From Zongyangia hominis (lineage in GTDB: Bacteria > Bacillota > Clostridia > Oscillospirales > Ruminococcaceae): DNA of 64,000 bases. The notes under the pieces were generated by a model. That model was not told the DNA's origin. It ran no database searches and saw only the letters and a list, made by a program, of their open reading frames with translations. Numbering within the stretch: position 1 is the stretch's first letter; every line of letters starts with the position of its first letter. The translations under genes and the position numbers were made by a program. The stretch spans positions 37,335-101,334 of the forward strand of contig NZ_JACRTC010000007.1 in NCBI RefSeq assembly GCF_014385095.1, read 5' to 3'. Of the stretch, positions 12,259 to 29,223 are shown piece after piece.

Positions 12259-12349
12259 CATTGCCGTACGCTATTTTATGGAAAGGAAGGGGAGTGACAC
12301 AGGGCAGAACAGGAAAAATAAAGGGAAAGGAGGATCGCGGGATCTTCAC

Positions 12350-12508
12350 AAAAGCGCCATGCACCGCAGGGAACTGCACCCTGTGCGTTAACGAGGTGGG
12401 AGGAATATCGAATCTTCGGCGGATACCTCCCCGGCCGCGGATGACCGGCCGACATGCTCTCCACAAAATCCGGGGGCGACTCCGGGACAAAGGGAAAGCG
12501 CGCATCCA
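12350..12508 (+). ncRNA. glmS ribozyme (glucosamine-6-phosphate sensor)
   Basis: The order of conserved blocks matches the glmS ribozyme: AAGCGCC at 12352-12358 (cleavage expected just before GCGCC), GTTAACGAGGTGGGAGG, ATCGAATCTTCGGCGGAT, ACCTCCC with a CGGCCG stem, and a 3' domain ending GGACAAAGGGAAAGCG. In this class, binding of GlcN6P triggers self-cleavage and decay of glmS mRNA, giving feedback control. The spacer from its end to the glmS start is about 230 bases, longer than usual, and includes a strong ccggcccttt / aaagggtccgg hairpin near 12561-12587. Confidence 0.92.
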
Positions 12509-12740
12509 TTTCGCCGCTGTTGCGGAAAAAGTGAAACATAACGGTTGAATCTTATAGATATCCGGCCCTTTGCGCAAAAAGGGTCCGGTGGCTCTGCGCC
12601 TTTTTGCGGCGTCTTGGAGCCAAAAGGCGGGGGCATAGCTGCGCCCGTCTCAATAGGTGTGCCGCTCGCCACAAAAAGCGGCTGCCGCGCCGGAAGGGCC
12701 GTCTTTGTGCGCCTTTCCCAGCGGGACACGGAGGTTTTTT

Positions 12741-20449: not shown

Positions 20450-20478
20450 TTGACAAAACCTAGGGATCAGTTTAAACT
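20450..20478 (+). promoter_or_regulatory. Promoter of the aro operon leader
   Basis: Perfect TTGACA, 17 bases, TAAACT. The RNA is expected to start near 20485, about 36 bases before the leader-peptide ATG. Confidence 0.7.
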
Positions 20479-20520
20479 CATACACATAGTATTTCACACA
20501 GAATGTTTGAGGTAAACAAC

Positions 20521-20646
20521 ATGGCTTCTTCTGTCAATGCAATGACAAAAGAATACTTTTTCTTTTTTAGCTTGGGCTTTTACTTTAGCGCAGGCTTTTT
20601 TGCGTTGGGAAAAATGAAGTTGCCAAATGCTGTATGCGCGGGATAG
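20521..20646 (+). CDS. Phe-rich leader peptide of the aromatic amino acid operon
   Basis: 41 residues. ATG 20521 is preceded by GAGG with an 8-base spacing; the stop is TAG 20644-20646. Residues 12-27 read EYFFFFSLGFYFSAGFF from position 11, with eight Phe codons (13-16, 20, 22, 26, 27) and two Tyr (12, 21). The last Phe codon ends at 20601, one base before the first arm of the attenuator hairpins. The arrangement is that of a PheL-type leader peptide whose translation senses charged tRNA-Phe (and perhaps tRNA-Tyr). It is inferred, not shown, that it is translated. Its residues are too few and too biased for an ordinary protein. Confidence 0.75.
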   Translation: MASSVNAMTKEYFFFFSLGFYFSAGFFALGKMKLPNAVCAG

Positions 20647-20712
20647 CATCCCGGGTCATTCAATCGGATGAGACAGGCCGGTGCTTTTGGTAACGAAAGC
20701 ACCGGCCTTTTT
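20602..20712 (+). promoter_or_regulatory. Ribosome-mediated transcription attenuator before aroF
   Basis: Four segments behave like a classical attenuator. Segment 1 (20602-20608, GCGTTGG) pairs with segment 2 (20623-20630, CCAAATGC, one bulged A). Segment 2 (20620-20630) pairs instead with segment 3 (20683-20693, GCTTTTGGTAA): 10 of 11 positions, including one G-U. Segment 3 is the upper 5' arm and loop of the terminator 20675-20708. A ribosome stalled on the Phe codons would cover segment 1 and free segment 2 to break the terminator's top. A further 6-bp hairpin (20639-20653) spans the leader stop codon. Confidence 0.7.
20675..20712 (+). terminator. Attenuator terminator of the aro operon
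   Basis: A perfect 13-bp stem, aggccggtgcttt with aaagcaccggcct, and an 8-base loop, followed by TTTTTG; only 38 bases before the aroF start and well after the aldolase gene, so it acts on the aro transcript itself. Confidence 0.9.
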
Positions 20713-20749
20713 GTATGCCGGCTCAAACAAAAATAACGGGGGTAATGTC

Positions 20750-21763
20750 ATGGTAGTCATTCTCAAAGAACACGCGGAAGAAAAAAAGGTGGACCAGCTC
20801 TTAGGCTGGCTGGAACTGATGGGCGTAAGGGCCAGCATCATCAAGGGCTCCCACACCACCATTCTGGGACTCGTCGGCGACACTTCCAAGATCGACATCG
20901 ATTCCATCCGGGCGGTGGACATCGTCGAAAACGTCACCCGGGTCCAGGAGCCCTATAAAAACGCCAACCGGAAATTTCATCCCGACGACTCCGTCATCGA
21001 CATCGGCGCGCTCAAACTAGGCGGCGAGCGCTTCCACGTGATTTCCGGGCCCTGCTCGGTGGAGAGTGAGGAGCAGATTCTGGAAGTGGCAAAGCGCGTC
21101 AAGGCGGCGGGCGCCACCATGCTCCGGGGCGGCGCATTCAAACCCAGGACTTCCCCCTATGCCTTCCAGGGCCTCAAGGCCGAGGGCATCGAATACTTGC
21201 TGGAAGCCAAAAAAATCACCGGCATGCCCATCGTCACCGAGATCATGAGCATCGCCCATCTGGACCTGTTCGAGGATGTGGACGTCATCCAGGTGGGGGC
21301 CAGAAATATGCAGAACTTCGAGCTGCTCAAGGAGCTGGGCAAATCGAAAAAGCCCATCCTCCTCAAACGGGGCCTGGCCAACACCCTAGAGGAGCTTCTC
21401 ATGAGCGCCGAATACATCATGGCCGGCGGCAACCCCAACGTCATCCTCTGCGAGCGGGGCATCCGCACATTCGAGACCTTCACCCGCAACACCCTGGACA
21501 TCTCCGCCGTCCCCATCCTCAAAAAGAAGTCCCACCTCCCCGTGGTGGTGGATCCCAGCCACGCCACTGGCATCACCTGGCTCGTGGAGCCCCTCTCCAA
21601 GGCGGCGGTGGTCTGCGGCGCGGACGGCCTGATCATCGAGGTCCACAATAACCCCGCCAAGGCCCTCTCCGACGGTCCTCAGTCCCTGACCCCCGACCAG
21701 TTCGACGCCATCATGCAGCCGCTGACCCAGCTCGTGGGCTACACCGGCAGAAAGATGGGGTAG
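20750..21763 (+). CDS. aroF: 3-deoxy-7-phosphoheptulonate (DAHP) synthase, type I-beta
   Basis: 337 residues: an N-terminal ferredoxin-like regulatory domain (about 1-70, MVVILKEHAEEKKVDQL) fused to a KDO8P/DAHP synthase barrel with ISGPCSVES, RGGAFKPRTSPYAFQG and VDPSHATG. This layout is that of the Thermotoga-like enzymes feedback-inhibited by Tyr or Phe. It condenses phosphoenolpyruvate and erythrose-4-phosphate, the entry step of the shikimate pathway. ATG 20750 follows a GGGGG. It is the first structural gene of aroF-tyrA-aroB-aroA-aroC-pheA and is placed directly behind the attenuator. Confidence 0.95.
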   Translation: MVVILKEHAEEKKVDQLLGWLELMGVRASIIKGSHTTILGLVGDTSKIDIDSIRAVDIVENVTRVQEPYKNANRKFHPDDSVIDIGALKLGGERFHVISGPCSVESEEQILEVAKRVKAAGATMLRGGAFKPRTSPYAFQGLKAEGIEYLLEAKKITGMPIVTEIMSIAHLDLFEDVDVIQVGARNMQNFELLKELGKSKKPILLKRGLANTLEELLMSAEYIMAGGNPNVILCERGIRTFETFTRNTLDISAVPILKKKSHLPVVVDPSHATGITWLVEPLSKAAVVCGADGLIIEVHNNPAKALSDGPQSLTPDQFDAIMQPLTQLVGYTGRKMG

Positions 21764-21766
21764 GAC

Positions 21767-22594
21767 ATGAAAATCGGAATTGTGGGCCTTGGCCTGATGG
21801 GCGCGTCCTTTGCCAAGGCACTCAAACGCTACACCTCCCACACCGTACTGGGCCTCGACAGGGACCCCGCCGTGCGGGAATCGGCGCTCCACGACGGCGC
21901 GGTGGATGAGGTCCACGAGGACCCCGCCTTTCTCTCCCAGTGCGCGGTCACCTTCCTGTGCCTCTTCCCCGTCCAGACGGTGGCCTTTGTCAAAGAAAAC
22001 CTCTCCCATTTCCAAAAAGGCTCCATTGTGGCGGACATCTGCGGCATCAAGGGCTATGTGGTAAACGCTCTTAGCCAAATGGAACTGCCGTTCATTTACC
22101 TTCCTTCCCATCCCATGGCGGGCCGGGAGGTCTGCGGCTACCACGGCTCCTTGGAAAGCCTGTTTGTGGGCGCCAGCTACATCTGCACCCCCGTGGACGC
22201 ACCGCAATACGCGGTGGACACGCTGGAAAGCCTGGTGCGCTCCATCGGCTTTACCGATTTTGTGGTTACCACCCCGGCGGACCACGACCGCATCATCGCC
22301 TTCACCTCCCAGCTTCCCCACGTCATTTCCAACGCCTATGTCAAAAGTCCCAGCTGCTCAAAGCATAACGGCTTTTCGGCGGGTAGCTACAAGGACCTCT
22401 CCCGGGTGGCCAAGCTCAACGAAGAGATGTGGAGCGATTTGTTCCTCCTCAACCGGGAAAGCCTCCTCTCGGAGCTCGACACCCTGCTGCAAAACCTCGC
22501 CCAGTACCGGGATGCCTTGGCCCGGGAGGACCGGGACGCCCTGCGCGACCTGCTGAGAGAGGGCAGAATCATCAAGGAGGAATGTGACCAATGA
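21767..22594 (+). CDS. tyrA: Prephenate dehydrogenase
   Basis: 275 residues. NAD-binding Rossmann motif GIVGLGLMGASFAKAL at the N-terminus, then LPSHPMAGREVCGY and the helical dimerisation domain with FTSQLPHVISNA. It oxidises and decarboxylates prephenate to 4-hydroxyphenylpyruvate, the precursor of Tyr. There is no C-terminal ACT domain, so feedback control probably acts elsewhere. Starts 3 bases after the aroF stop; its end overlaps aroB by 4 bases. Confidence 0.93.
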   Translation: MKIGIVGLGLMGASFAKALKRYTSHTVLGLDRDPAVRESALHDGAVDEVHEDPAFLSQCAVTFLCLFPVQTVAFVKENLSHFQKGSIVADICGIKGYVVNALSQMELPFIYLPSHPMAGREVCGYHGSLESLFVGASYICTPVDAPQYAVDTLESLVRSIGFTDFVVTTPADHDRIIAFTSQLPHVISNAYVKSPSCSKHNGFSAGSYKDLSRVAKLNEEMWSDLFLLNRESLLSELDTLLQNLAQYRDALAREDRDALRDLLREGRIIKEECDQ

Positions 22595-23646
22595 AAAAAA
22601 TCCATGTCAGCGCGTCGAGGGGCTACGACATCCTCATCGGCCGCAATCTGTTAACAGACGCGGGCTATTATCTGAAACAGGTCCTTTCCCCCAAGCGGGT
22701 CTGCGTCGTCTCGGACGACGTGGTCTTCCCCCTCTATGGGGAAAATGTCGTCTCCTCTTTGGAGGGCGCGGGATTTTCCGTCGTCACTTTTGTCTTCCCC
22801 CACGGCGAGCCCCAGAAAAATTTGTCCACCGTCTCCGAGCTCTTTGACTTTCTCGTCAAAGAGGGCTTTACCCGCACCGACGTGCTGGTGGCGCTGGGCG
22901 GGGGCGTGGTGGGGGACTTGACCGGCTTTGCCGCCGCCTGCTACCTGCGGGGGGTCAAATTCGTCCAGATTCCCACCACCTTTCTGGCCCAGATCGACTC
23001 GTCGGTGGGCGGCAAAACCGGCGTGGACATCCCCGGCGGCAAGAACCTGGTGGGCGCTTTCTGGCAGCCGAGCCTCGTACTGTGCGACATCGCCACCCTC
23101 TCCACCCTGTCCCCGGACATCTTTGCCGACGGCACGGCGGAGGCCATCAAATATGGCCTCATCTACGACGCCGACCTCTTCGACGTCTTCCGTAATCATC
23201 TGTTGGAAGAGCATCTCTTCGACGTGGTTTACCGCTGCATCGAGATCAAAAAGCAAGTGGTGGAAGAGGACGAATTTGACACGGGGCTGCGGATGATCTT
23301 AAACTTCGGCCACACTCTGGGCCACGCCATCGAAAAGTCCTACCACTTTACCGGCATCACCCACGGACGGGCGGTGGCGGTGGGCATGGTCCTCATTTCC
23401 GACGCCTGCGCAAAAAACGGCCTGCTCTCCATTTCCGACGCCGAGGCCATCCGCTCCACCATCCAAAGCCACGGCCTGCCCGTGTCGGTGCCGCTGGAGA
23501 CAGGTTCGCTGTGTGCCCTGTGCGGCAGCGACAAGAAGATGGATGGGGACACCCTCAACCTCATTATCCTTGAGGACATCGGCCACGCGGCGGTGCGGAA
23601 AATGTCTTTAGCGGGGCTCCAGGAATTTATGGGAAACGAGGGGTGA
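22591..23646 (+). CDS. aroB: 3-dehydroquinate synthase
   Basis: 351 residues, the usual AroB length. NAD-binding VALGGGVVGDLTGFAAACYLRG-type motif, then PTTFLAQIDSSVGGKTGVD and the metal ligands in FGHTLGHAIEK and GITHGRAVAVGM. It closes DAHP to 3-dehydroquinate using NAD and a divalent metal. Translationally coupled to tyrA through an ATGA overlap. Confidence 0.96.
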   Translation: MKKIHVSASRGYDILIGRNLLTDAGYYLKQVLSPKRVCVVSDDVVFPLYGENVVSSLEGAGFSVVTFVFPHGEPQKNLSTVSELFDFLVKEGFTRTDVLVALGGGVVGDLTGFAAACYLRGVKFVQIPTTFLAQIDSSVGGKTGVDIPGGKNLVGAFWQPSLVLCDIATLSTLSPDIFADGTAEAIKYGLIYDADLFDVFRNHLLEEHLFDVVYRCIEIKKQVVEEDEFDTGLRMILNFGHTLGHAIEKSYHFTGITHGRAVAVGMVLISDACAKNGLLSISDAEAIRSTIQSHGLPVSVPLETGSLCALCGSDKKMDGDTLNLIILEDIGHAAVRKMSLAGLQEFMGNEG

Positions 23647-23650
23647 CAAG

Positions 23651-24919
23651 ATGGATGTTATGGTAAGCGCCTCCACCCTGCGCGGGACGGCTTCGGCCGT
23701 CCCCTCCAAGAGTATGGGGCACCGCAGTCTGATCTGCGCGGCTTTGGCCGGTGGCGGGACCGTCTCGGGCCTTCGCTTCTCGGCGGATATCTCCGCCACC
23801 GTGGACGCTCTCTCCGCCATGGGCTTTTCGCTCACCAGGGACGGCGGGGCCGTTCGGGCCGGGGCTTTTACGCCGCCGTCCTCTCGGGGCGGAGAACTGC
23901 CCGTCATCGACTGCAATGAGTCCGGCTCCACCCTGCGCTTTCTCATCCCGGTGGCGGCGGCGCTGGGAGAAAGCGTCACCTTCACCGGCCGCGGGCGGCT
24001 CCCCAGCCGTCCCATCGGCGTCCTCACCGACGCCCTCTCCCAGCACGGCGTCTTCTTCTCCGGAGACTCCCTCCCCCTTTCCATGTCAGGATACCTGAAA
24101 CCGGGACATTTCCGTCTCCCCGGCAATGTGAGCTCCCAGTATATTTCCGGGCTTCTCTTTGCCCTGCCCCTCCTGGAGGGTGACAGCGTCGTCGAGATCA
24201 CCACCCCGCTGGAATCAAAGCCCTACATCGACCTGACCGTCAAGGCCCTCGGGGACTTCGGCATCAAGGTCACTGAGACGTCCCAGGGATATGCCGTCCG
24301 GGGAAATCAGCGCTATGAGCCCCGGGACTGTGCGGTGGAGGGGGACTATTCAAACGCGGCCTTCTTCGCCTGCGGGGCCGCTTTGGGCGGCGCCGTGCTC
24401 ACCACGGGCCTTGATCCCGCCTCCCTCCAGGGGGATCGGGACATTTTCCCCCTTTTAGAGCGGATGGGCGCGAAGGTAACGTGGGAAACGGACGGCGTGC
24501 GGGTCCAATCGGGGCCGCTGCGGGGAATCGACATCGACGCGTCTCAGATTCCCGACCTGGTCCCCGTTTTGGCTGTCACCGCCGCCTTCTGCGAGGGTGA
24601 GACCACCATCTATAACGCCGGACGCCTTCGCCTCAAGGAGAGCGACCGGCTCTCCGCCGTCTCCGATTGTCTGCGCCGCTTGGGCGCTCAGGTGGAGGAA
24701 GGGTCCGACCGGTTAAAGATCACCGGCAAGCCCCGGCTTTTGGGCGGCGAGGTGGACGGCTGCAACGACCACCGCATCGTCATGGCCATGGCGGTGGCGG
24801 CCCTGCGCTGTGAGGGCCCTGTCATCATCCGGGGAGCCCAGGCGGTGGAAAAATCCTACGGCGCCTTTTTTGAAGATTATCAAGCATTAGGAGGAAACTG
24901 TCATGTCATCCGTGATTGA
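23651..24919 (+). CDS. aroA: 3-phosphoshikimate 1-carboxyvinyltransferase (EPSP synthase)
   Basis: 422 residues. SKSMGHRSLICAALA (substrate-binding Lys), CNESGSTLRFLIPVA, GNVSSQYISGLLFA and RLKESDRLSAV are all present, giving a complete two-domain EPSP synthase. It joins shikimate-3-phosphate and phosphoenolpyruvate. Its end overlaps aroC by 17 bases, with the aroC ribosome binding site (AGGAGG) inside this gene. Confidence 0.96.
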   Translation: MDVMVSASTLRGTASAVPSKSMGHRSLICAALAGGGTVSGLRFSADISATVDALSAMGFSLTRDGGAVRAGAFTPPSSRGGELPVIDCNESGSTLRFLIPVAAALGESVTFTGRGRLPSRPIGVLTDALSQHGVFFSGDSLPLSMSGYLKPGHFRLPGNVSSQYISGLLFALPLLEGDSVVEITTPLESKPYIDLTVKALGDFGIKVTETSQGYAVRGNQRYEPRDCAVEGDYSNAAFFACGAALGGAVLTTGLDPASLQGDRDIFPLLERMGAKVTWETDGVRVQSGPLRGIDIDASQIPDLVPVLAVTAAFCEGETTIYNAGRLRLKESDRLSAVSDCLRRLGAQVEEGSDRLKITGKPRLLGGEVDGCNDHRIVMAMAVAALRCEGPVIIRGAQAVEKSYGAFFEDYQALGGNCHVIRD

Positions 24920-26012
24920 CCAGAACATTAAAGTCTCCATCTTTGGCGAGTCCCACAGCCCACAAATCGGCGTGGTCATGGACAATCTTCCCGCCGGTCT
25001 TCCCATCGACATGGACAGGGTCCTCGCCTTTATGGCTCGGCGGGCTCCCCAGGCCGCGTCCTATTCCACCGCCCGGAGGGAGGCTGACGTGCCTCAGGTG
25101 GTCTCGGGGCTCTTTGAAGGGCACACCACCGGCACCCCGCTGTGCGCCCTCATCGCCAACACCGACACCCGCTCCAAGGATTACGAGGAGATGCGCGCCA
25201 AGGCCCGCCCGGGCCACGCCGACTTCACCGGCTTTCTGCGCTACCACGGCCAAAACGACTACCGGGGCGGTGGCCACTTCTCCGGGCGGCTGACGGCCCC
25301 GCTGTGCTTCGCGGGCGCTGTGGCTCTCCAGGCCCTGGAGGGTCTCGGCGTCACGGTGGGCGCTCACATCCTCTCCCTGGGCGGGGTGTGGGACAACGCC
25401 TTTGACCCGGTGGATATTTCGGCCAAAGAGCTGCGCGCGGTCAGCGGGGCCGAGTTCCCCGTCACCGTGAGCCCCGTCAAGCTCAAGATGCTGGAAGCCG
25501 TGGAAGAAGCGCGCAAGGACAAAAATTCCCTGGGCGGCACCATCGAGTGCTGCGCCGTGGGGGTGCGGCCGGGCCTCGGATCCCCCATGTTCGACGGGCT
25601 GGAAAACGTCATTTCCCGCATCGTCTTCGGCATCCCCGCCGTCAAGGGCATCGAGTTCGGCAGCGGCTTTGACTGCGCGGGCATGACCGGCAGGGAGCAC
25701 AACGACCCCTTTTATATGGACGAAAACGGCATGGTCAAAACCAAGACCAACAACCACGGCGGCATCCTGGGCGGCATCTCGTCGGGCATGCCCCTCATTT
25801 TCCGGGTGGCGGTCAAGCCCACCCCCTCCATCGCGTCGGAGCAGGACACGGTGGACTTTGTCGGCGGCAAAGACGAAAAGATCGCCATCACCGGGCGGCA
25901 CGACCCCTGCGTCGTCCCCCGGGCGGTGCCCTGCGTGGAGGCGGCGCTGGCGCTCGGCCTCTTGGACGCCTATCTGGCCCCCCGGCCCACGCTGGAAGAA
26001 GAAAGGCGGTAA
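24903..26012 (+). CDS. aroC: Chorismate synthase
   Basis: 369 residues. SIFGESHSPQIGVVMDNLPA, the RPGHADFTG segment and GGRLTAPLC-like active-site stretch (seen as FSGRLTAPLCFAG) identify AroC; the FMN-binding region with HNDPFYMD and NNHGGILGGISSGMP follows. It makes chorismate from EPSP with reduced FMN. Start ATG 24903 lies inside the aroA end. Confidence 0.96.
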   Translation: MSSVIDQNIKVSIFGESHSPQIGVVMDNLPAGLPIDMDRVLAFMARRAPQAASYSTARREADVPQVVSGLFEGHTTGTPLCALIANTDTRSKDYEEMRAKARPGHADFTGFLRYHGQNDYRGGGHFSGRLTAPLCFAGAVALQALEGLGVTVGAHILSLGGVWDNAFDPVDISAKELRAVSGAEFPVTVSPVKLKMLEAVEEARKDKNSLGGTIECCAVGVRPGLGSPMFDGLENVISRIVFGIPAVKGIEFGSGFDCAGMTGREHNDPFYMDENGMVKTKTNNHGGILGGISSGMPLIFRVAVKPTPSIASEQDTVDFVGGKDEKIAITGRHDPCVVPRAVPCVEAALALGLLDAYLAPRPTLEEERR

Positions 26013-26017
26013 TTCCC

Positions 26018-27160
26018 ATGGATTTAACACAGCTTCGCCAACAGATCGACGAGGTGGACGGACAGATCGTCGAGCTTTTCAAAACGCGGATGGCCCTGGT
26101 GGACGGGGTCGCCCGGTATAAGCGGGAACACAGTATCCCGGTCCTCCACGCGGGACGAGAAGAGGAGGTCCTCGACCGGGCGGCCAAGCTGGCGGGGCCC
26201 GAACTGGCCGGGGCCAGCCGGGTGCTCTTCACCACCCTCATGGACGTGAGCAAGGGCAGTCAGTATTCCCAGAACCTGCCCCCCGATTCCAAGCTCCTCT
26301 CCTACCGGGACCGGGCCAAGGAGCCCTTTGTCCTCCCGTCGGCGGCCCGGGTGGGCTGCCAGGGGGTGATGGGGGCCTATTCCTCCATCGCCGCCCGCCG
26401 CATGTTCCCCCAGCCGGACCTGCGCTTCTACCGTCACTTCGCCGACGTCTTCGACGCGGTGGACCAAGGGGAAATCGACTTCGGGGTCCTGCCCATTGAA
26501 AACTCCTCGGCGGGCAGCGTCGGGGAGGTCTACGACCTGATGAAAGCCCACGATTTTTCCATCGCCGCGGCTCTCAAGCTCCGCATCGACCACTGCCTGG
26601 TGGCCAAGGACTCCATGGACATCGGTAAGATTACCAAGGTCTACTCCCATGAGCAGGGCATCAACCAGTGCCGCCGCCTCTTTGACGAGCACCCCCACTT
26701 AGAGCCGGAGGTTTTCTCCAACACGGCGGCGGCGGCGGAGTTTGTGTCCAAATCGACCGACGGCACCCTGGCCGCCATCTCCTCCAAGGAGACGGCGGAG
26801 CTCTACGGCCTAAAAATCCTCAAAGAAAACGTACAGGACAATGACTTTAACTTTACCCGTTTTATCATCATCACCAAGGATTTTGTCAGGACTGCCGACG
26901 CGGACAAGATTAGCTTGAGCCTGGTCCTCCCCCACCGGGCGGGTTCCCTCTACCATGTCATCACCCGCTTTGCGGTGCTGGGCCTCAACCTGACAAAGCT
27001 CGAATCCCGCCCCATCCCGGGCCGCGACTTTGAGTTTCGGTTCTACTTCGATTTTGAAGGCTCCATCCTGGACGACAAAGTCCTCTCTCTCCTCCACCAG
27101 CTGGACCAGCAGCTGGAATATTTCTCCTTTTTGGGCAACTTCCACGAGCACTGCCGTTAA
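26018..27160 (+). CDS. pheA: Bifunctional chorismate mutase / prephenate dehydratase
   Basis: 380 residues in three parts: AroQ-type chorismate mutase (1-85, LRQQIDEVDGQIVELFKTRM), prephenate dehydratase (about 105-285, with VGCQGVMGAYSSIAARRMFP and LPIENSSAGSVGEVYDLM), and a C-terminal ACT domain (about 300-370) with HRAGSLYHV and LESRPIPGRDFEF, the Phe-binding signatures. It converts chorismate through prephenate to phenylpyruvate and is expected to be inhibited by Phe. Last gene of the operon, so Phe-specific synthesis falls under the Phe-sensing leader. Confidence 0.95.
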   Translation: MDLTQLRQQIDEVDGQIVELFKTRMALVDGVARYKREHSIPVLHAGREEEVLDRAAKLAGPELAGASRVLFTTLMDVSKGSQYSQNLPPDSKLLSYRDRAKEPFVLPSAARVGCQGVMGAYSSIAARRMFPQPDLRFYRHFADVFDAVDQGEIDFGVLPIENSSAGSVGEVYDLMKAHDFSIAAALKLRIDHCLVAKDSMDIGKITKVYSHEQGINQCRRLFDEHPHLEPEVFSNTAAAAEFVSKSTDGTLAAISSKETAELYGLKILKENVQDNDFNFTRFIIITKDFVRTADADKISLSLVLPHRAGSLYHVITRFAVLGLNLTKLESRPIPGRDFEFRFYFDFEGSILDDKVLSLLHQLDQQLEYFSFLGNFHEHCR

Positions 27161-27210: not shown

Positions 27211-27319
27211 GCGCCCGGCGGCGACGAAAACAAACCGCGTAAAAACTGCAACTAGTTGCGCGCAGAAAAATCATTGTTTTTTTTAGCGCATTTGCCGGAT
27301 AGGTTCTTTTTGTGAATTC

Positions 27320-27328
27320 TGGTATACT
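27320..27328 (+). promoter_or_regulatory. Extended -10 promoter of the EamA pair
   Basis: TGGTATACT, about 47 bases before the first EamA start; no good -35. A 12-bp palindrome GCAACTAGTTGC lies upstream at 27248-27259 and might be an operator. Confidence 0.55.
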
Positions 27329-27374
27329 AAAGTTTAGAAAATCGTTACAATATCTTCGTTCTGGAGGGGAATTT

Positions 27375-28280
27375 ATGCCAACTCTCTCTCAAACCGCACC
27401 AAACAAACAGCTCAGCCCCGGAAAGGCCACCGTTTTGTTAGTGATCTGCGCCGCCATGTGGAGCTTTAACGGCACCTGGATTAAGCTGGTGGACTTTCAT
27501 CCGATTGTTACCAACTCCGCCCGTTGTATTTTCACCGCCCTCACCCTCTACCTCTACTCCCGATACAAAAAGGAAAAGATCGCCGTCAACAAGGAAACTA
27601 TCATTGGCGGGCTGATCATGACCTCCATGATGGTCGTCTCGGCCTGTGCGTTTCGGATGACCACGGCGGCCAACGCCATCATCCTTCAGTACGTCAGCCC
27701 CATCTATGTCCTCATCGTTTCGGTCCTCTTCTTTAAGCAGAAAGCCCGCCTTAAGGACATTTTGGTGGTCGTCTTCTCCATTTTGGGTGTGGCGCTGTTC
27801 TTCATCGACAAGGTGGAGGCGGGCAATCTTTGGGGCAATATTCTGGCGGTCTTTTTGGGTATGCTCTTCGCCCTCTCCTTCCTCTACAATAACCACACCA
27901 CCCAAAACCCGCTGCACATCATTTTCTTTGCCTGCATCTTCTCCGCCCTAGTGGGAATTCCGTTTTACTTTGTCTATCCGCCCCACTTCACCCCGGCTAG
28001 CGGAACGGCCATCGTGGCCATGGGCGTCGTCAATCTGGGCATCCCCTATATCCTGTACAGCATGTCTATCCAGCGATGCAGCGCCCTGACCGCTTCCATC
28101 GCCACCATGGTGGAGCCCATCCTCACCCCCGTCTGGGCCCTGCTGCTAGTCAAAGAAAAGCCGGGTCAATTCGCCCTGTATGGCGCTGTTTTGGTGCTGC
28201 TAACCATCTCCCTTTACAGCATTTCCAATGCCCGGGCCGCTCAGAAAGCGAAGGCTCCGGCGCCCGAGAACGCCGGGTAG
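27375..28280 (+). CDS. EamA/DMT family transporter, copy 1
   Basis: 301 residues with ten membrane helices in two EamA repeats (LLVICAAMWSFNGTWIKLVD starts the first; SAPIQ-type segments are replaced by MSIQRCSALTASIATMVEPI in the second). Drug/metabolite transporters of this type export amino acids or metabolites; the substrate is unknown. ATG 27375 follows GGAGGGG. The next gene is a close paralogue and both probably share this promoter. Adjacent to aromatic biosynthesis and IOR/PaaK genes, so export of an aromatic compound is possible but unproven. Confidence 0.88.
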   Translation: MPTLSQTAPNKQLSPGKATVLLVICAAMWSFNGTWIKLVDFHPIVTNSARCIFTALTLYLYSRYKKEKIAVNKETIIGGLIMTSMMVVSACAFRMTTAANAIILQYVSPIYVLIVSVLFFKQKARLKDILVVVFSILGVALFFIDKVEAGNLWGNILAVFLGMLFALSFLYNNHTTQNPLHIIFFACIFSALVGIPFYFVYPPHFTPASGTAIVAMGVVNLGIPYILYSMSIQRCSALTASIATMVEPILTPVWALLLVKEKPGQFALYGAVLVLLTISLYSISNARAAQKAKAPAPENAG

Positions 28281-28335
28281 CGGCGCATGCATCCGTTTGT
28301 TATTCCATTTATCAACAGAAAGGCTGGGAATCCTA

Positions 28336-29223
28336 TTGACCACAACACTTCAAACCCCACAAAAACGCCAAATGGGCCAGGGCCAGGCCACCATTTTGCT
28401 GGTCGTCTGCGCCGCCATGTGGAGCTTCGCGGGCACCTGGATTAAGCTGGTGGACTTTCATCCCATCATCATCAATTCCTCCCGGTGCGTCTTCGCGGCC
28501 CTCACCCTATTTATTTATTTTAAGATCAAAAAAGACAAAATCGCCGTCAACAAGGGAACTATTCTCGGCGGCCTCATCATGGCTTCGGTCATGACCGTCA
28601 CCGTCGCCGCCCTGAGTCTGACGACGGCGGCCAACGCCATCATCCTCCAGTACATGAGCCCGGTCTATGTGCTGATCATCTCCGCCATCTTTTTCCATCA
28701 AAAGGTCCGGGGCAAGGATGTGCTGGTGGTCATCTTCTCCATCCTGGGCGTCACCCTCTTTTTTATCGACAAGGTGGCGGCGGGGAGTCTACTGGGCAAT
28801 GTCCTGGGTATCTGCGGGGGCATTCTTTTCGGCATCTCCTTTCTCTACAATAACCGCACTAAGCAAAATCCCCTCCACATCGTCTTTTGGGGTTGTGTCT
28901 TTTCGGCCCTCATCGGCATCCCCTTCTATTTTCTCTATCCGCCCCATATCACCGCTCTGGGCGCAGTGGCGGTCGTCATGATGGGCAGTGTTCATCTAGG
29001 CGTCCCCTATATCCTCTACGGTCTGGCCATCCAGCGGTGCAGCGCCCTCAACGCCTCGGTGGCCACCATGATCGAGCCCATCCTCACCCCCATCTGGGTC
29101 TTCCTCTTTGTGGGGGAAGCGCCGGGAAAATACGCGCTGGCAGGCGCCATTCTGGTCATGCTAGTTATCTCCCTTTACAGCATCTCCAACGCCCGGGCCG
29201 CTCAGAAAGCGGCGCAGGAGTAG
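28336..29223 (+). CDS. EamA/DMT family transporter, copy 2
   Basis: 295 residues, ten membrane helices, colinear with copy 1 throughout (AAMWSFAGTWIKLVDFHPI, LTTAANAIILQYMSPVYVL, IQRCSALNASVATMIEPIL), so the pair arose by tandem duplication. The start TTG 28336 gives an N-terminus of the same length as copy 1; ATG 28372 is a shorter alternative. Begins 56 bases after copy 1. The ends of both proteins share SLYSISNARAAQKA. The 98-bp repeat array starts 8 bases after its stop. Confidence 0.86.
   Translation: MTTTLQTPQKRQMGQGQATILLVVCAAMWSFAGTWIKLVDFHPIIINSSRCVFAALTLFIYFKIKKDKIAVNKGTILGGLIMASVMTVTVAALSLTTAANAIILQYMSPVYVLIISAIFFHQKVRGKDVLVVIFSILGVTLFFIDKVAAGSLLGNVLGICGGILFGISFLYNNRTKQNPLHIVFWGCVFSALIGIPFYFLYPPHITALGAVAVVMMGSVHLGVPYILYGLAIQRCSALNASVATMIEPILTPIWVFLFVGEAPGKYALAGAILVMLVISLYSISNARAAQKAAQE

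Follow-up and report, generated by a model that had tools for sequence, protein, structure and literature searches.

A Phe/Tyr-coded leader and a putative ribosome-mediated attenuator upstream of aroF in Clostridia

The region directly 5' of aroF in the window, the 64,000-nucleotide stretch of Zongyangia hominis DNA analysed here, is very probably a ribosome-mediated transcription attenuator that senses Phe-tRNA and Tyr-tRNA. A reading of the window from its sequence only had proposed a Phe-rich leader with this kind of control, and had called for a comparison with related genomes. Run on the aroF upstream regions of relatives, the comparison supports that proposal, since the Phe/Tyr codons, the terminator and the alternative pairing are conserved.

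The leader and the aro operon of the window

The features of the locus are listed in Table 1; the leader and its terminator stand directly 5' of aroF-tyrA-aroB-aroA-aroC-pheA. The promoter-like site has a -35 element TTGACA (20450-20455), a 17-nt spacer and a -10-like TAAACT (20473-20478), together matching 10 of 12 consensus bases. In translation, the leader ORF has 8 Phe and 2 Tyr residues, all of them at codons 12-27, and none of 40 dinucleotide shuffles of the 350-nt upstream region matched its Phe/Tyr score. If translation started instead at another in-frame ATG, at 20503, the ORF would have 47 codons; that start is without a visible RBS. The terminator stem (20675-20708) has 13 perfect pairs, or 15 with one G-U, the T tract then runs to 20712, and 37 nt separate the end of the tract from the aroF ATG at 20750. 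The window terminator has a folding energy of -29.7 kcal/mol (z -7.0 against shuffles). Thus, the -35 promoter element, the RBS, the 41-codon ORF with its Phe and Tyr codons and the 13-bp terminator of the sequence-only reading check out in both sequence and coordinates, and NCBIfam matches agree with its gene names, those of tyrA and pheA being below curated cut-offs. The nearest named relative that we found is Candidatus Pararuminococcus gallinarum (class Clostridia), whose aroF is 94% identical. Downstream of pheA are two adjoining, overlapping DMT/YddG-like transporter ORFs (27312-28280 and 28228-29223; matches below curated cut-offs), which are possibly aromatic amino-acid exporters tied to the aro operon.

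Table 1. Coordinates of the leader, its RNA elements and the aro genes in the window
Feature	Position	Strand	Basis or detail
Promoter-like site, sigma-70-type	20450..20478	+	Consensus match only
RBS GAGG of the leader ORF	20509..20512	+	8 nt 5' of ATG 20521
Leader ORF, 41 codons and stop	20521..20646	+	Translation MASSVNAMTKEYFFFFSLGFYFSAGFFALGKMKLPNAVCAG
Control codons Y12, F13-16, F20, Y21, F22, F26, F27	20554..20601	+	Translation
Hairpin P1 inside the leader ORF (predicted)	20569..20596	+	RNAalifold on 23 sequences
Region 2, putative antiterminator 5' strand	20620..20630	+	TTGCCAAATGC; segment 2 of the sequence-only reading plus 3 nt; pairs with 20683-20693
Region 3, putative antiterminator 3' strand	20683..20693	+	GCTTTTGGTAA; inside the terminator 5' arm and loop
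Intrinsic terminator (regions 3:4) and T tract	20675..20712	+	Sequence, folding, covariation
aroF, DAHP synthase	20750..21763	+	NCBIfam TIGR01361
tyrA, prephenate dehydrogenase family	21767..22594	+	NCBIfam match below curated cut-offs
aroB	22591..23646	+	NCBIfam match
aroA	23651..24919	+	NCBIfam match
aroC	24903..26012	+	NCBIfam match
pheA, chorismate mutase/prephenate dehydratase	26018..27160	+	NCBIfam match below curated cut-offs

Phe and Tyr coding of the leaders among aroF relatives

The aroF homologues came from two sources, 80 contigs and genomes belonging to the family and phylum of Candidatus Pararuminococcus gallinarum, and their upstream ORFs were scored by the count of Phe and Tyr within 14 residues. 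ORFs with a score of at least 7 were present in 100 of 216 aroF upstream regions (211 distinct), compared to 2.7 expected from dinucleotide shuffles and 2 on the reverse strand, which shows that the enrichment of Phe/Tyr ORFs 5' of aroF is not due to chance. When the upstream regions of trpE (18) and hisG (30) from the same family were scored, none of the 48 reached 7 and one reached 6. Trp and His leaders were also sought at these genes. The 18 trpE loci had a single W-containing ORF, L335, which does not look like a leader, and the 30 hisG loci had no candidate. Of aroF, trpE and hisG, then, only aroF was seen to have the system. Before five leaders were excluded, leader-type ORFs (score of at least 6) were counted at 27 of 29 loci whose aroF is at least 70% identical to that of the window, 79 of 114 at 65-70%, 40 of 56 at 60-65%, 8 of 17 at 56-60% and 2 of 45 at 50-56%, fractions that are not prevalence estimates because the sets were picked by similarity. 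The leader is clade-bound and common among close aroF relatives, and its named carriers include Angelakisella massiliensis and Oscillibacter valericigenes (both Oscillospiraceae), Yanshouia hominis and Marasmitruncus massiliensis.

With further loci added, the set comprised 261 distinct items and 156 leaders, of which 151 were accepted and five were left out as implausible by eye (L079, L229, L218, L061 and L145). An SD-like 4-mer lies 5' of an in-frame start in 141 of the 151 accepted leaders, and a terminator lies between leader and aroF in 147, the four where it was not found being L305, L007, L030 and L144. Counted over distinct regions, terminators were present at 90 of 96 with a leader score of at least 7, at 32 of 35 with a score of 5-6, and at 31 of 80 with a score of 4 or less. 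A search of 148 genomes with the leader pattern of class B, the class of the window, returned 26 matches. Of these, 11 are upstream of aroF and 14 do not look like leaders on inspection; the remaining match, L386, resembles a leader ORF and sits where its contig ends. With the class-A pattern there were two matches, each directly 5' of an aroF copy (G013 and G053). Leader-type ORFs also precede aroF on contigs titled Lentisphaerae, Treponemataceae or Kiritimatiellae (L029, L039, L045, L055 and L076), which we attribute to transfer or wrong binning.

The composition of the leader tends to follow the content of the operon. Among the 81 of 151 accepted leaders with at least 4.9 kb of downstream sequence, the mean Phe fraction of the Phe and Tyr codons was 0.77 with only pheA downstream (n = 19), 0.57 with both pheA and tyrA (n = 30), 0.33 with only tyrA (n = 8) and 0.64 where neither was found (n = 24). 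The fraction was lower with tyrA downstream (38 leaders) than without it (43 leaders; Mann-Whitney p = 3.5e-6, n = 81). Exceptions to this match include the Phe-rich leaders before tyrA in the window and in L001. Four Tyr-rich leaders (L302, L294, L286 and L012) precede aroF copies with no tyrA or pheA found downstream; at L302, genes for a thioredoxin and a Crp-family regulator are found downstream of the Tyr-leader aroF.

Since related genomes are not independent, the comparison of paralogues within a genome weighs more. Among 26 genomes with two fetched aroF copies, accepted leaders were found on both copies in 8, on one in 15 and on none in 3; in several of those 15 genomes, the leaderless copy is a divergent aroF that shares 55-58% identity with that of the window. 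Summed over the 8 pairs, the leaders have F62 Y14 versus F17 Y49, with a Fisher p of 1.4e-11 that is only indicative because the analyst chose which leader of a pair was counted first. In 7 of the 8 pairs, one leader has a Phe majority and its partner does not, the exception being G058 (F2Y4 and F2Y6). In G040, aroF-aroB-aroA-aroC-pheA has the Phe leader and aroF-tyrA the Tyr leader, and in G055 the two stand before aroF-pheA and aroF-tyrA, respectively. A ninth pair came from a pattern search not aimed at paralogues: in G320, the Phe leader L313 precedes an aroF with pheA downstream, and the second leader, L406, is a Tyr leader (MHTLLSKTAYNSYYGYAYLGYFYSAGRLCCGLSGDRGQ) before aroF-tyrA. G058 also has a tandem arrangement (L306), in which two aroF copies, 89% identical and each with its own leader and terminator, are followed by tyrA-aroB-aroA-aroC-pheA. 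Taken together, leader composition, operon content and isozyme pairs turn what had been a guarded 'maybe Tyr' into a clear Phe/Tyr system.

Hairpin P1, the proposed antiterminator pairing and other explanations

Using 23 sequences, RNAalifold predicted both the terminator and a hairpin inside the leader ORF, P1, unprompted. P1 has its 5' arm at 20569-20578, its loop at 20579-20586 (codons F-Y-F) and its 3' arm at 20587-20596. In the first alignment (A1, 23 of 40 class-B candidates), 92.3% of P1 cells are paired compared to 87.8% in shuffles, with 0 of 500 as high and slid controls at 51% or less. The second alignment (A2, 27 of 32 candidates) holds a second leader class, whose register differs (AGCTTTRCC, then aromatic codons, then GGYAAGGCT). 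Its P1 has 88.9% of cells paired compared to 82.0% in shuffles, a level that none of 500 shuffles reached, and slid controls go up to 70.8%. These counts are favoured because the members of both alignments were hand-picked for clear class features. As judged from these aligned sequences, P1 covaries in two separate alignments. The terminator has both-side changes in 12 of 13 pairs (23 sequences). In the window, the P1 fold alone has -13.4 kcal/mol (z -2.5). Compared with synonymous-codon versions of themselves, the ORFs of 147 leaders fold more stably, with a mean z of -1.35 (p = 2e-23); for the window alone, the synonymous-shuffle fold was not significant (z +0.38).

The sequence-only reading had placed an upstream hairpin at 20602-20608 and 20623-20630 (segments 1:2); this can be drawn in the window and found little wider support. 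Across the 23 relatives, 49.0% of its cells pair compared to 37-46% in slid controls. Of 500 shuffles, 30 reached its level of paired cells and 8 its level of cells with changes on both sides, and over 146 leaders the region after P1 folds no more stably than its shuffles (z -0.03). An upstream hairpin is conserved, in another place: it is P1, which lies inside the Phe cluster.

Around the aromatic codons, the residues SLG..SAG and SFT..GKA recur. An aromatic peptide in which short stretches such as SAG and GKA are repeated from leader to leader would suit arrest by the nascent peptide, whose own sequence would stall the ribosome on free Phe or Tyr, as in TnaC, rather than through tRNA charging. 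We consider this improbable, since the recurring codons are accounted for by the P1 RNA hairpin, Phe and Tyr swap for each other according to the operon, and the number of aromatic residues, their spacing and their neighbours vary among leaders.

The attenuator reading calls on a pairing of region 2 with region 3, and here the sequence-only proposal of a segment 2:3 pairing found support. In the window, 10 of 11 positions pair between 20620-20630 and 20683-20693, with one G-U, as read from the sequence. In an alignment-free comparison covering 146 of the 147 leaders with a terminator, the region after P1 prefers the 5' arm and loop of its own terminator over the ones taken from other loci, with z -1.09 (p = 1e-23, n = 146), and the own-terminator pairing is in the best tenth at 59 of 146 loci. 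The preference was z -1.23 with GC- and length-matched swaps (n = 138, 8 of 146 loci being left out for too few matched partners), z -1.40 against shuffled own arms (n = 146), z -1.39 against shuffled own regions (n = 146; p of 0.05 or less at 51 loci) and z -1.38 on 121 non-redundant loci. In class B, segment 2 of the sequence-only reading, in the tail after P1, is the predicted partner of the terminator (swap z -1.21, p = 1.2e-6, n = 33); for example, in L306, TTGCCAAAGGCA pairs with TGCTTTTGGTAA. In class A, the aligned 2:3 pairing shows weak covariation: of 500 shuffles, 3 reached its level for paired cells, 1 for cells changed on both sides and 193 for pairs with a both-side change.

Several tests of this pairing were weaker or failed. 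For the window alone, the pairing after P1 is moderate (z -1.6, -1.4 and -0.8 by three controls), the region-2 shuffle is not significant (p = 0.22) and the fold of 20616-20700 has z -2.0. Counted in fixed columns of A1, 49% of the 2:3 cells are paired and 172 of 500 shuffles are as high; this count fails because region 2 shifts between loci relative to P1. The signal is also weak when tested over the whole leader (mean z -0.36 and -0.48, n = 89) and against a synonymous-codon null (z -0.22, p = 0.047, n = 147). With the P1 3' arm still included, a test from which 15 of 147 loci with a short region were left out, class B alone gave z -0.58 (p = 0.029), and the signal is clear only once the region after P1 is taken by itself. 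Despite these tests, comparison and folding point to an antiterminator that would be mutually exclusive with the terminator. The P1 3' arm (20587-20596) was also tried as region 2 and dropped: covariation is absent (128 of 500 shuffles reached its level) and it fails the swap test (z 0.1, n = 33); 77% of its cells pair with the terminator arm compared to 48% or less when slid, and it ranks high among own-leader windows. A hairpin that masks region 2 in the untranslated leader was found neither as a fold of the region after P1 nor in the swap test of the P1 3' arm. For region 2 at the 72 loci whose z is below -1, the median start lies 20 nt 3' of the final Phe/Tyr codon of the cluster (quartiles 16 and 31), and the median end lies 1.5 nt short of where the stop codon ends (quartiles 9 nt short of that point and 12 nt past it). 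In the window, it ends 13 nt 5' of the stop codon, so a ribosome at the stop would mask it only partly.

These results also bear on the idea that the ORF encodes a small functional hydrophobic protein followed by an ordinary intergenic terminator, for which the hydrophobic 41-residue peptide, the promoter-like site and the RBS could be cited. The RNA-level constraint on the ORF in the synonymous-codon fold test, the pairing of the leader with its own terminator, and the Tyr-only versions before paralogous aroF genes all argue against it, and we regard it as very improbable.

T-boxes are frequent in these organisms, with 9 to 20 matches per genome in the seven genomes searched. A T-box above the cut-off is upstream of trpE at 9 of 15 loci scanned (L330-L332, L334, L337, L338 and L340-L342, in the genome family with aroF leader peptides). 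Four of these nine genomes have an aroF leader (G020, G022, G055 and G058), which shows that at least some organisms use both systems. Among 30 loci without a leader call, two have a T-box 5' of aroF (L031 and L071), and another, L006, has a possible leader further upstream. In the window, RF00230 (T-box) has no match at the gathering threshold upstream of aroF, and a glmS ribozyme at 12342-12509 (RF00234, 82.7 bits) is the only Rfam match at gathering score. Control of the operon by a T-box or another ligand-binding RNA, with the Phe codons incidental, is the least probable explanation and hardly credible here: T-boxes occur in all 7 genomes searched and before aroF at those two loci, but Rfam gave nothing at gathering score for 20.4-20.8 kb and a T-box was found in 0 of 10 scanned leader-bearing loci.

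Proposed mechanism and comparison with known systems

Comparison among relatives thus speaks for the leader, its Phe/Tyr code, P1, the terminator and the 2:3 pairing, and from these we infer how the ribosome would stall, mask region 2 and respond to tRNA charging. A ribosome would begin the leader ORF while RNA polymerase is transcribing the leader, and P1 would probably serve as a pause hairpin that holds the polymerase for the ribosome to catch up. When charged tRNA-Phe or tRNA-Tyr is scarce, the ribosome would stall on a Phe or Tyr codon among codons 12-27, break P1 and leave region 2, near the end of the ORF, free to pair with the terminator 5' arm and loop, so that the aro operon is transcribed. 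When both tRNAs are charged, the ribosome would reach the stop codon (20644-20646) and partly cover region 2, the terminator would form, and transcription would stop near 20712. The ribosome footprint lengths and the putative pause role of P1 follow general background knowledge. A two-state switch, in which stalling frees region 2 and the stop covers it, is the simplest form, and a separate 1:2 hairpin would not be needed.

It is reasonably likely, in our judgement, that a single aroF-dedicated attenuator spans a large Clostridia clade and was recoded between Phe and Tyr as aroF duplicated and moved before pheA or tyrA. Mixed leaders would then act as OR sensors, turning the operon on when the supply of one or the other amino acid runs low, and Phe-only or Tyr-only leaders would give isozyme-specific control at the RNA level. 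In E. coli, isozyme-specific control is exerted via TyrR and allostery. To our knowledge, no leader peptide that senses Tyr-tRNA has been described before, and the Tyr-only versions would be the first. Attenuation of the classical type would be a widespread means of controlling entry into the shikimate pathway in relatives that have T-boxes as well, some of them before trpE, and leader code, operon content and isozyme pairs agree enough to predict from sequence the amino acid sensed by many aroF copies. The codon run would be a direct, editable readout of sensing specificity, so both Phe-to-Tyr recoding and the OR logic are testable with simple reporters.

The enterobacterial pheA leader (the PheL attenuator) combines a Phe-rich short ORF, an intrinsic terminator, an alternative antiterminator pairing and Phe biosynthesis genes downstream, and the window leader resembles it in all four. 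It differs from PheL in standing before aroF and whole aro operons, in mixing or exchanging Phe and Tyr codons, and in having no Rfam match; moreover, its upstream hairpin lies inside the control codons, and the 3' arm of that hairpin fails the terminator swap test. In enterobacterial leaders, a 1:2 hairpin sequesters region 2 when the leader is untranslated, unlike here, where no such hairpin was found.

The sequence-only reading had called a leader of this kind unusual in Firmicutes, which is too strong, given the published His and Leu attenuators, a published aroF uORF candidate in Acholeplasma, and how common the element is among close aroF relatives. As described in those papers, His leader-peptide attenuators occur in Firmicutes (PMC9413887, PMC2965389), where, as here, classical attenuation is found alongside T-boxes; unlike the window leader, they use His codons and serve his operons and hisS/hisZ. 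The Leu-rich attenuator peptide described in S. aureus (PMC5794164) is likewise leader-peptide attenuation in a Firmicute, with branched-chain amino-acid genes rather than aro genes. For Enterococcus faecium, another cis element is proposed in the text on aroFBC-tyrA, upstream of these genes (PMC4448216). In the open PMC literature, preprints excluded, we found no report of a Tyr-coded amino-acid leader, an isozyme-matched aro leader or an aro leader of this clade.

The closest precedent that we found in print is the uORFC-13-1 motif, described from 24 representatives in Acholeplasma and environmental sequences as a uORF with 'at least one' Phe residue upstream of aroF, with an adjoining terminator and a further base-paired substructure (PMC8632094). 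Compared by description, the window leader shares with it aroF, a Phe-containing uORF, the adjoining terminator and an extra base-paired substructure; the Tyr versions, isozyme pairs and operon correlation reported here are absent from the section on that motif (PMC8632094).
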